Of a stretch of 33,302 nt of DNA, positions 29,836 through 33,302 are shown in pieces. Both the position numbers and the translations under genes were made by a program. Within the stretch, counting starts at the first letter, position 1. Each line of letters starts with the position of its first letter. Origin of the DNA: an uncultured Elusimicrobia bacterium. Its GTDB lineage: Bacteria; Elusimicrobiota; Elusimicrobia; Elusimicrobiales; UBA9959. Location: positions 1-33,302 of the forward strand of contig CAIPTO010000089.1 in assembly GCA_903867985.1 (NCBI GenBank). The letters are read 5' to 3'. The notes below the pieces were generated by a model. The model was not told the DNA's origin, did no database searches, and saw nothing but the letters and a program-made list of their open reading frames with translations.

Positions 29836-30900
29836 CTACACCGCCCTATTACCTTTCCCGCCCAAAGACAGCTCTTTGCGGTACTGGGCGATGGAGCGCC
29901 GTGAGAGTTTCACCCCGTACCTCTTCTCAAGCGCAAACCCCAACTCAGCGTCGGAAACATCCGGCCTTTCCGAGGCCAGAGCGTAAAGCCTTTCCTTATT
30001 CACATCTTTGGAACTGGGCAAAAGCGTAGTCATGGGTGCCTCGGTGCCCCAGGGCAACTGCACCGACTTATTGGAAACCAGCCGGTTCAGGACGCTCGTA
30101 TCCACCCCCAGGTTCTTGGCCAAAGTCCGCTGCGACAGCGGCCTGCGGCGGGAAGGCTCTCCGCTGGTAAGGAAATCCGTCTGTACGCTTATCAGCAACT
30201 CAAGCGCGCGGTAAAGCGTGGTCTTGCGCTGATCCGTAAATTCAAGGCGCTTCAGAAGATTCTCAATTTTATTTCCGTCCGCAGCGGAAAGGGCCGCGGC
30301 GTATTGCTCCAGCTTTTCCCTGTTCACGCGGTAACGCCCCTTCCACACTTCCCGGTTAAAGAACGCCAGCACCGGTGAACCGTCCTCAAGCTCTATTCCG
30401 GCCACGGCGCTGAAAACTTTTTCGGGCAGGGGAGCCGGCGCCCCCTCAAATTCCCCGTGAATAAAAGCGCGGTTAACAAAATCCCTGAGCCTGACGGCGT
30501 CTTCCTTTGTTATGCCGCATACTTCCGCCCTTTGAGCGTCGGTCCTCTCCCCGTCTTTAAGGAAACAGGTCTCAAAATTCTCCTGCCCTATCCGCTGCAT
30601 CAACCCCACCAGATCCCCGCCGCCATCGGCAAGATCGGGAAGGTCCCCGGCTGAAAGCCTGAGGCCATAGCCGGCGAAATTCTTGGCCGCGTAACGGGCG
30701 CTCGGGAACTCGGCCAGATTCACCACGCCGGCAGTCTTCAGCAGTTTAAAAAGTCTGGAGCTTTCCAGCTCTTTTAACTGTTTTTCAAAATCACCCTCCG
30801 ACATCTCCATGAGCCCGGCCAGCTTCAGCCGCCCCTGCATCACGGCTGAGGCTCTTGCCGCCAGCCCGTGAGTTAAGCGCATCCTGGGAATTTTATTCAT
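29836..30900 (-). CDS. short, divergent sigma-54 (RpoN-like) factor
   Basis: A sigma-54-family RNA polymerase factor of 354 residues, clearly shorter than the usual 430-500. Region I-like sequence is at 7-53 (RLTHGLAARASAVMQGRLKL, then FEKQLKELESSRLFKLL). The core-binding region includes LLKRLEFTDQRKTTLYRALE at about 215-234. The helix-turn-helix is at about 255-290 (LSQRTLAKNLGVDTSVLNRL, then NKSVQLPWGT). The RpoN box reads SRRSIAQYRK at 333-342 against the consensus ARRTVAKYRE. An acidic region II is lacking. The usual LKYFF block after the PxG motif is replaced by MTTLLP. It is divergent from a GAFTGA activator gene, and a -24/-12 element precedes it. It is probably a specialised paralogue. 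Confidence 0.85.
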   Translation of the reverse strand: MNKIPRMRLTHGLAARASAVMQGRLKLAGLMEMSEGDFEKQLKELESSRLFKLLKTAGVVNLAEFPSARYAAKNFAGYGLRLSAGDLPDLADGGGDLVGLMQRIGQENFETCFLKDGERTDAQRAEVCGITKEDAVRLRDFVNRAFIHGEFEGAPAPLPEKVFSAVAGIELEDGSPVLAFFNREVWKGRYRVNREKLEQYAAALSAADGNKIENLLKRLEFTDQRKTTLYRALELLISVQTDFLTSGEPSRRRPLSQRTLAKNLGVDTSVLNRLVSNKSVQLPWGTEAPMTTLLPSSKDVNKERLYALASERPDVSDAELGFALEKRYGVKLSRRSIAQYRKELSLGGKGNRAV

Positions 30901-30970
30901 ATCCGCCCGCGTTCATCCTTCCAAAAGATTTAAAAACTGCCCCCCTCCCGCCATCCCCTGCCTGATACAG

Positions 30971-30986
30971 AGCAATTTTTATGCCA
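30971..30986 (-). promoter_or_regulatory. -24/-12 (sigma-54-type) promoter of the sigma-54-like gene
   Basis: The minus strand reads TGGCATAAAAATTGCT, matching the sigma-54 consensus TGGCAC-R-N4-TTGCW except for one base, with the invariant GG and GC ten bases apart. The predicted start is near 30960, about 60 bases before the ATG at 30900. Confidence 0.75.
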
Positions 30987-31074: not shown

Positions 31075-31114
31075 TATTTTCATTTGAAAATATTTATTTT
31101 CGTTTGAGAATGTT
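31075..31114. promoter_or_regulatory. two tandem 20-bp partly palindromic sites, likely regulator binding sites
   Basis: Two adjacent 20-base units at 31075-31094 and 31095-31114 differ only by three A-to-G changes. The first contains ATTTTC-ATTT-GAAAAT symmetry. They lie 115-154 bases upstream of the predicted sigma-54 start at 30960, a normal enhancer distance. They also lie just ahead of the divergent activator gene, so they may control both directions. Confidence 0.6.
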
Positions 31115-31141: not shown

Positions 31142-32515
31142 GTGACTAAATTAAATATCCTTGTCGTGGAAGACGATAAACTGGCGCAGAAAGTCATGTC
31201 CGGCCATTTACGCGCTCACAATGTTGATCTGGCGGGCGACAAAAAAACCGCTTTAGCAAAATTGGCAAATGGCCATTACGACATCTGCTTTTTTGACCTT
31301 ATGCTGGGGCCTAAAGACGATTATTCCGGCTTGAAGCTGATCCCTGTCGCCGTCTCCAAGGGCTTTTACTGCGTGGTAATGTCCGGCTCCGACTCCGACG
31401 AAATAATAAACAAGGCTTACGGTCTGGGCTGTAAAGATTTTTATTCCAAAGGCAATGAGGAGTCCAACGTTGAGGCTGTTATCAGAAAATATTTCCAGAG
31501 CAGGACCGGAACAGCCGGCGCCGATGTTTTTTCAAGCCGCTTCGTGACCTCGGACCCCGCCACCAGGGCCGTCGTGAGCGAAGCTCTTAAATACGCGCCC
31601 TCGGAATTACCCATTCTTATCCTGGGCCCCTCCGGCTCGGGCAAAACCTCCCTGGCCAAAATTATCCACGACTATTCCGGCAGGGAAGGCTCTTTTGTGG
31701 CCATCAATTGCTCCGCCTACACCGAAGACTTGCTTGAGGCTGAACTTTTCGGCCATAAAAAAGGCGCCTTCACCGGGGCCGGAGAAACCCGCAAAGGCCG
31801 CCTGCTGGAGGCTCACAAAGGAACCTTGTTCCTGGACGAGATAGGCACCATGAGCCTTAACATGCAGATGAAACTGCTCAAAGCCATAGAGGAGCGCTCT
31901 TTCTACCCGCTGGGCTCCGATAAACCGGAGCATTCAGAATTCCGCATAATAAGCGCCACCCTGGAAAACATACAACAACTCATTTCGCAGGGGAAAATGC
32001 GCCTGGACCTGTTTCAGCGCATACACGGATTCACCATAGACCTGAGCCCGCTGAGCCGCAGAAAGGACGATATTTTCCCGCTCCTAACTCACTTCACGGC
32101 CGGCACCAAACGGCTGGCATTTTCTCCGGATGCGAAAGCCTATATTCAGAATTATACCTGGCCGGGCAATGTCAGAGAGCTGAAAAGATTTTCCGAGCTT
32201 CTGGTCAGCGGCTCGGAAGGGAGGATAGATCTTGAAGCGGTAAAACAACATCTTACCGCCTCCGACCCCGCCGCACCGGCAGGGAAATTATCAGGGGGCG
32301 ACGCCTATCGGCACGCCCTGGCCAACGGCCTTGAACGGACCTTGGACCGGGTAGCTTACGAGATAATCCAGCGGAGCATGACGGAGAACGGGGGCAAAAA
32401 GACCGGGACGCTTTCGGACCTTAAAATTTCAACGCGTTTTCTCTACGCCACTTTGAATAAATTCGGGGCGGTGGCTGCGCGCAAAGACAAGCAACCGCAG
32501 GGGGATGAACAATGA
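31142..32515 (+). CDS. NtrC-family sigma-54 activator (receiver, AAA+, Fis-like)
   Basis: A bacterial enhancer-binding protein of 457 residues that remodels sigma-54 polymerase with ATP. The receiver is at 4-116, with E10-D11-D12, phosphoacceptor Asp52 and Lys103. The AAA+ domain has Walker A GPSGSGKT at 162-169, the sigma-54 contact loop GAFTGA at 208-213, Walker B LFLDE with D232-E233, RLDLFQRI, and WPGNVREL. The C-terminal segment (YEIIQRSMTENGGKKTGTLS, then ISTRFLYATLNKFGA) is a divergent Fis-type helix-turn-helix. The start is GTG with AGGGGG at 31130-31135. It overlaps the DHp gene by four bases and is divergent from the sigma-54-like gene. Confidence 0.92.
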   Translation: MTKLNILVVEDDKLAQKVMSGHLRAHNVDLAGDKKTALAKLANGHYDICFFDLMLGPKDDYSGLKLIPVAVSKGFYCVVMSGSDSDEIINKAYGLGCKDFYSKGNEESNVEAVIRKYFQSRTGTAGADVFSSRFVTSDPATRAVVSEALKYAPSELPILILGPSGSGKTSLAKIIHDYSGREGSFVAINCSAYTEDLLEAELFGHKKGAFTGAGETRKGRLLEAHKGTLFLDEIGTMSLNMQMKLLKAIEERSFYPLGSDKPEHSEFRIISATLENIQQLISQGKMRLDLFQRIHGFTIDLSPLSRRKDDIFPLLTHFTAGTKRLAFSPDAKAYIQNYTWPGNVRELKRFSELLVSGSEGRIDLEAVKQHLTASDPAAPAGKLSGGDAYRHALANGLERTLDRVAYEIIQRSMTENGGKKTGTLSDLKISTRFLYATLNKFGAVAARKDKQPQGDEQ

Positions 32516-32700
32516 GCCAGCCTGACGACCTGAGCAAACTGCTGCACGATATCAAAGGAAAATGCGCCAGCATCAAAGGCGCGGCCGACTTATTCCGGGA
32601 TTGTTCGGTGGAAGAAAAACGGGAGATGCTCGCCCTCATGAGCGAGGCCGCGCGAAACATCTCCGGGACTTTGCTGGAACTGGGCAAAACTCTTAAGTAA
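32512..32700 (+). CDS. stand-alone histidine-kinase DHp-like domain, 62 residues
   Basis: A tiny protein that resembles only the dimerisation and phosphoacceptor helices of a sensor kinase. Helix 1 carries the H-box-like KLLHDIKGKCASIKGAADLF with His12. Helix 2 is EEKREMLALMSEAARNISGT, ending in LLELGKTLK. There is no ATP-binding domain in the gene or after it on this strand. Its ATG overlaps the activator's stop (ATGA) behind AGGGGG, so it is coupled to the response regulator. It could act as a histidine phosphotransferase in the manner of Spo0B/ChpT or as a dimerisation modulator; this is inference. A truncated kinase remnant is less likely because the gene is neatly coupled. Confidence 0.65.
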   Translation: MSQPDDLSKLLHDIKGKCASIKGAADLFRDCSVEEKREMLALMSEAARNISGTLLELGKTLK

Positions 32701-32815: not shown

Positions 32816-33202
32816 CTACGACCAAGGTGGTTCTTTCCCGGCGACTTTTAGCCAGGGGAGATGCGCGAACTTTTCGGGGGCGTGGCCGGTGGCCATGGTT
32901 ATGTCGGTAAAACCTTTTTCATGCAGGTCTTTGGCGATGTCTTCGCCTTTAATATCGCTTCCCAGATCTGAATCTATATACACAGGCGTGTCTTTAGGCA
33001 AAGTTTCTATACCGGCGGCAAAATCTTTTGGGGTTTTATAAGCTTTTAGTCCCACACCAGCCGCTTTAGCCGCCAACTTCCAGTTCATGTGAACCAGCAT
33101 ATCGTCGTCTAACAGGACAACCTGGTGGTCGGCACCATGCATTACTACGCTGGGAAGCTCTATCAGGACAGTCGTGCCTTTGCCAAGTGCGTTTTCCGGA
33201 GC
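32816..33202 (-). pseudogene. 3' remnant of a hybrid histidine kinase, truncated by an IS21-type end
   Basis: Read on the minus strand, the first native residues ENALGKGTTVLIELP are the last strand of a histidine-kinase ATP-binding domain. A receiver domain follows: VVLLDDDMLVHMNWKLAAKA, phosphoacceptor-type Asp in PVYIDSDLG, and a conserved-looking end GHAPEKFAHLPWLKVAGKEP. The kinase H-box, N-box and G-boxes are missing. Upstream the frame enters terminal repeats of a mobile element and meets a TAA at 33301-33299. So only the C-terminal receiver and a stub remain. A short GTG-started product from 33235 could in principle still be made. Confidence 0.8.
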
Positions 33203-33302
33203 AAAGTAGCCACCATTCCGCTGTAAAGTAGCCACTATTCCGTTACAAAGTAGCCACCGTTCCGGTGAAAGTAGCCACCCCTGTTTTTGATGGGGTGATT
33301 AA
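33203..33302. mobile_element. terminal repeat array of an IS21-type insertion sequence (edge of window)
   Basis: AAAGTAGCCAC occurs four times at 33203-33213, 33225-33235, 33247-33257 and 33268-33278, at 21-22 base spacing, with TTCCG between the first three pairs. Multiple short terminal repeats of this kind (GTGGCTACTTT on the other strand) are typical of IS21-family ends. The transposase and helper genes would lie right of the window; a minus-strand TAA at 33301-33299 may be the end of the helper gene, but that cannot be shown. The exact element end, near 33193-33203, is ambiguous because it blends with the kinase sequence. Confidence 0.7.

Follow-up and report, generated by a model that had tools for sequence, protein, structure and literature searches.

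A probable IS21-family insertion in a sensor histidine kinase gene next to a sigma-54 regulatory module of an uncultured Elusimicrobia bacterium

Contig C89 of an uncultured Elusimicrobia bacterium ends, on its right, in a disrupted sensor histidine kinase gene that passes into a row of short direct repeats before the sequence stops at position 33302. Was this gene entered by a mobile element, and which regulatory system did the kinase serve? The window, that is, the whole stretch of DNA analysed (33,302 bp), is the complete contig, one of 147 in a 2.62-Mb bin (G000). A sequence-only reading had proposed a hybrid kinase cut by an IS21-type end. On the evidence below, insertion of an IS21-family element into the kinase gene is very probably what happened.

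What remains of the kinase gene occupies 32816–33187 on the minus strand and encodes the last strand of the HATPase domain followed by a C-terminal receiver-like domain. It is identical at 348 of 372 nt to a paralogue on contig C125, and in protein alignment the histidine and nearly all of the ATP-binding domain are gone from the C89 fragment. The paralogue runs through the junction position into HATPase_c (56.8 bits, Pfam), and a second genome of the genus, G002, has an uninterrupted homologue of 571 aa with HATPase_c (83.5 bits), HisKA (29.1 bits) and the same C-terminal domain, which together bear out the proposal that a kinase gene has been cut. Further kinases of the same kind are found in the bin on C83, C84 and C125, the last with C66 or C67. 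The minus-strand frame is open from its stop codon at 32816 to an in-frame stop at 33299–33301, 37 codons of it lying inside the element; both the stop at the window edge and the lack of any other lesion on the receiver side had been read correctly. Since the frame stops 37 codons into the element, fusion by read-through from more distant sequence is not expected. A short, receiver-only product may still arise from a start codon within the element.

An open frame also bears on the idea that the kinase gene had been reduced to a truncated relic beforehand and that the element inserted at the broken edge of this fragment. Kinase-tail relics do exist in this genome, as a 71-bp stretch at C66:8820–8890 demonstrates, which is 79% identical to the kinase tail and has no kinase frame. 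The C89 frame, however, is open over all 372 bp to the junction, and 15 of its differences from C125 are synonymous while 9 fall in amino-acid-changing codons; prior decay is therefore a very unlikely account of the fragment.

The insertion junction lies at 33187|33188, where identity to the C125 paralogue ends (33187) and TGCG begins the element (33188). This is at least 5 bases to the left of the position first suggested (near 33193–33203). With the border drawn here, the kinase strand quoted in the sequence-only reading stands as far as LGKGTTVLIELP, which is kinase, whereas its residues ‘ENA’ are encoded by the element. The window contains the outermost 115 bp of the IS21-family left end (33188–33302, plus strand, reading inward), and these are an exact prefix of the 141-bp end found on contig C92. 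They contain four exact direct repeats of AAAGTAGCCAC (33203–33278, plus strand), at 33203–33213, 33225–33235, 33247–33257 and 33268–33278, and the steps of 22, 22 and 21 agree with the four copies at 21–22-base steps reported before; judged from the repeat count and from papers on IS21, these are likely IstA-binding sites. Exact copies of AAAGTAGCCAC number 16 in the bin, all on one strand, with four each on C89, C92, C52 and C111 (the pattern read backwards gave 1 match). From TGCG inward these four contigs are identical over the available length (115, 141, 138 and 124 bp, respectively), and the flanks before TGCG are unrelated. Each copy runs to a contig end, as expected of a multi-copy element that the assembler could not cross. 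Searches with the left end against plasmids and with the double repeat against viral_contigs gave no match. The view that the disruption looks recent fits the identical ends of the four copies and the open frame.

We identified the element through its relatives. With a 145-bp C92 end as query against 340 genomes of the phylum, and at most two candidates scored per genome, matches were obtained in 11 genomes, one of them the bin itself. Among the 12 loci in the ten other genomes, istA lies a short way inward from the end in three: L042 (G123), L047 (G151) and L044, where 29 residues of istA precede the end of the contig. No istA was found at the other nine end-like loci, six of which are less than 100 bases from a contig end. 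The G123 element is complete: it measures 2612 bp, carries istA and then istB between a left end, TGCGTATTCCGG, and a right end, and is flanked by a 7-bp target duplication. Its IstA scores 257.3 bits against NF033546 (IS21 transposase; NCBI cut-off 160) and its IstB 247.7 bits against NF038214 (IstB helper; NCBI cut-off 200). In genome_contigs, 14 stretches have three AAAGTAGCCAC repeats at similar spacing; istA begins from residue 1 shortly inward in five of them, and in seven the sequence ends within 70 bases. Two more of the 14, L081 and L084, had no istA detected adjacent to their AAAGTAGCCAC arrays, which are possibly solo ends or relics. The IS21-type assignment is thus upheld by homologous ends that run into istA/istB and by a complete relative with matching ends.

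Identical TGCGTAATCC ends close contigs C113, C70, C43 and C3. They resemble the right end of the G123 element, which identifies them as the right ends of the bin’s element; the complete G123 copy rules out reading them as a second left-end variant. In this bin the element has TGCG at either end, giving it 5′-TG tips, and several direct repeats in its left end. Target-site duplications in the IS21 family are 4–8 bp long. When the four left flanks were compared with the four right flanks (16 pairings), C92 and C3 shared 7 bp and C52 and C70 shared 6 bp; the remaining 14 pairings had 0–1 bp in common, rising to at most 2 on shifting the border by one base. Over 16 random pairings, about 0.002 duplications of 7 bp and 0.007 of 6 bp would be expected by chance. 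The C89 flank has at most 2 bp in common with any of the four right ends, so that the short target duplication which the sequence-only reading had suggested looking for was found for two further copies of the element in the bin but not for C89.

These comparisons speak to a wrong join of the repeat to an intact kinase gene during assembly. All four left-end copies do lie at contig ends, in a bin fragmented into 147 contigs; but a real multi-copy element would also place its repeats there, the change of flank falls on one and the same base in all four contigs, the right ends behave alike, and target duplications link two of the left ends to right ends. We consider such an artefact extremely improbable.

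Neither IstA nor IstB of the element’s kind was found in the bin, where searches likewise did not recover the body of the element. PF00665 matched only C87 (twice) and C74, none of these matches belonging to this element, and an IstB-family search returned five matches, strong on C36 and C57 and weak on C1, C70 and C45. The IS21-type elements of C36 and C57 were rejected as the missing body: their ends differ (that of C36 carries repeated GTAAGTTCCCC) and their IstA proteins are 24–25% identical to G123 IstA. The two (L026 on C36, L027 on C57) are related elements of another kind, about 3 kb long, with other end repeats.

Where, then, is the other half of the kinase? Left ends C89 and C111 and right ends C113 and C43 remain unpaired, and with no right end matching C89, loss of the far side, an adjacent deletion or an insertion free of duplication are all possible. 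One version of events accordingly accepts the insertion and has the far half lost or moved later, by adjacent deletion or by recombination between copies, and the four unpaired ends are in its favour. Against it stand the kinase N-terminal halves at the starts of C66 (L095) and C67 (L096), which differ in their sensor parts. Positions 1–141 of these two contigs are exactly identical and lie within the kinase domain, and each contig has an overlap of exactly 75 bp with the C125 end. C125 and C89 have C-terminal halves and no N-terminal half, so two N-terminal halves face two C-terminal ones, and a short unbinned piece would explain the gap with no deletion. Later loss or movement of the far half is thus unlikely, and the missing half is probably on C66 or C67. 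Gene order in G002 favours C66 as the partner of C89; the common 141 bp do not discriminate. The piece that would join this half to the right end of the element would measure only some hundreds of bases and may have been lost during binning. The missing half that had been predicted beyond the element therefore has candidates, and no junction between either of them and a right end was found in the bin. The sequence common to C66 and C67 suggests recent gene conversion or domain swapping.

The last 100 residues of the kinase, called a receiver in the sequence-only reading, probably are one. Five aligned sequences conserve DDD, D73 and K119 in this domain, and in a low-confidence structural model (pLDDT 59.6) the seven best folds were response regulators, the best at E 0.12 and none at 0.001. 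Pfam gave no Response_reg match, and a profile search of the PDB ranked one receiver (E 0.78) below two OSR1 kinase chains. The name therefore stands as likely, on conserved residues and a weak likeness of fold.

From these observations we infer the following course. An IS21-family element of the istA/istB type would have entered the kinase gene at a point shortly before the sequence for the final strand of the ATP-binding domain, joined in by IstA with the help of IstB, the family’s usual reaction according to the literature, with the AAAGTAGCCAC repeats presumably serving as IstA-binding sites. A short stretch not present in the bin would connect the element to the other kinase half, on C66 or C67. 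This copy of the kinase would be inactive because the element separates its catalytic part from its C-terminal domain. Before the insertion it probably acted together with the sigma-54 response regulator and the RpoN-like factor encoded next to it, a pair that may activate peptide clusters.

That response regulator, a receiver joined to an AAA+ domain (PF00072, 38.7 bits; PF00158, 191.7 bits), is encoded at 31142–32515 on the plus strand, convergent with the cut kinase gene; its matches to the NCBIfam equivalog models for NtrC and PrsR fall under their cut-offs. After it, at 32512–32700 on the plus strand, is a small ORF of 62 aa with an HDIK motif, of which G002 has a 51% identical copy in the same place; by eye, a similar small ORF accompanies the regulator on C83. 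The 62-aa protein resembles a miniature histidine phosphotransfer half. On the minus strand, at 29836–30900, lies the gene for a short sigma-54 factor of 354 aa (PF04552, 55.4 bits; cut-off 22.8). We call it RpoN-like and not RpoN proper because Pfam detects its DNA-binding domain and neither an activator-interaction nor a core-binding domain, and because it scores 59 bits against TIGR02395, far under the cut-off of 277. Two more RpoN-like genes occur in the bin (G000:C111:21257–21661 and G000:C86:2380–2775); the genus search found no paired-palindrome site of the type described next on either contig. Between the RpoN-like and regulator genes sit a sigma-54-type promoter, TGGCATAAAAATTGCTC, upstream of the former (30970–30986, minus strand), and two palindromes 20 bp apart (31076–31111), which we propose as a response-regulator site. 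The RpoN-like gene is likewise divergent from the regulator gene on contig C55 of G002.

The bin has six copies of TGGCATAAAAATTGCTC, contained within eight matches to the looser pattern TGGCAYN5TTGCYC (reversed control, 0). Paired palindromes are found 90–99 bp upstream of four of the six, namely C66:5724, C89 and two on C125; the C86 promoter has one weak palindrome and the C87 promoter none. Paired palindromes also occur at a fifth place, C66:8701, ahead of a variant promoter. What follows these promoters differs from place to place. The C89 promoter leads to the RpoN-like gene itself. On C125 (L017; 1881–5060), paired palindromes and promoter are followed by two tandem peptides of 31–32 aa and then by LanKC, a class III lanthionine synthetase (735 bits; cut-off 575). 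The C66 locus (L095; 7188–8745) has paired palindromes and the variant promoter ahead of a short ORF with a threefold TSGFNRAPEL repeat, possibly a repeated-core RiPP, and then a radical SAM/SPASM enzyme; the kinase-tail relic of this contig (8820–8890) is just upstream of this peptide operon. The C87 promoter leads to a cysteine-rich ORF and the C86 promoter directly to a radical SAM enzyme. The G002 kinase and regulator genes enclose roughly 18 kb, in which Pfam identifies at least one radical SAM gene and inspection by eye suggests further frames of radical SAM-like and transporter-like type. From their position, the short ORFs are putative precursor peptides, and position likewise points to this response regulator as the protein that would act at the paired palindromes.

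Four genomes of the genus were compared: the bin, G001 (98% complete), G002 and G003 (68% complete). Paired palindromes occur in five places in the bin and four in G002 (one with 1 mismatch and one with 3), and none in G001 or G003; the reversed control gave 0. Sigma-54 DNA-binding domains follow the same distribution, with three in the bin and one in G002; neither G001 nor G003 has any. G001 had no match to the kinase (E limit 1e-12) or to the regulator (E limit 1e-100), and G003 has one related kinase. The G002 paired sites on its contigs C22 and C14 are outside the G002 cluster; G002:C22:14357–14392 is a perfect paired palindrome. One way to draw these data together is an accessory, self-contained sigma-54 module that is devoted to RiPP clusters and varies within the genus. 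It would consist of the RpoN-like factor, the AAA+ regulator, the HDIK protein and the kinases; the regulator would bind paired palindromes 90–100 bp upstream of TGGCATAAAAATTGCTC-type promoters of precursor-peptide/enzyme operons, and the IS21 insertion would remove one among several input kinases. We regard this proposal as evenly balanced. The C86 and C87 promoters without a clear paired site count against it, as do the perfect G002 site outside the known cluster and the presence in G003 (68% complete) of a kinase with no sigma-54 match. Because sigma-54 domains and paired sites occur in the same two of four genomes, the idea of a removable, dedicated module is testable.

The insertion by itself is an ordinary IS21-family event and part of ordinary genome turnover. 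What may be new is the combination of parts in the sigma-54 RiPP module: among the open-literature matches listed, no title or abstract opening described a dedicated sigma-54 system for RiPPs. A sigma-54 control system with sites readable from DNA could help to find small precursor peptides, and the element would provide a natural knock-out of one of the system’s kinases.

Compared with known systems, the bin’s element is like IS21 and IS5376 in its several direct end repeats and TG tips, its G123 homologue has istA followed by istB and a short duplication, and duplications flank two other copies in the bin. In PMC10122671 and PMC11208146, multiple direct repeats are described for IS21 ends, with 3′ CA at the tips; the left end here differs in having four closely spaced exact repeats where these papers have ‘usually at least two’. 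The regulatory genes resemble sigma-54 two-component systems of the NtrC/PrsR-like type, in which an AAA+ sigma-54 response regulator stands beside a HisKA/HATPase kinase. Unlike those systems, they include a short RpoN-like factor of their own, an apparent tie to RiPP clusters and one disrupted kinase copy. NisRK is the sensor kinase and response regulator of a lanthipeptide cluster, and the present system resembles it in associating such a pair with lanthipeptide genes. One survey (PMC10663231) assigns lanthipeptide regulators to a clade within the OmpR tree and reports that a sigma-54 domain is present in 2% of response regulators from natural-product clusters, whereas the regulator described here is of the sigma-54 type.
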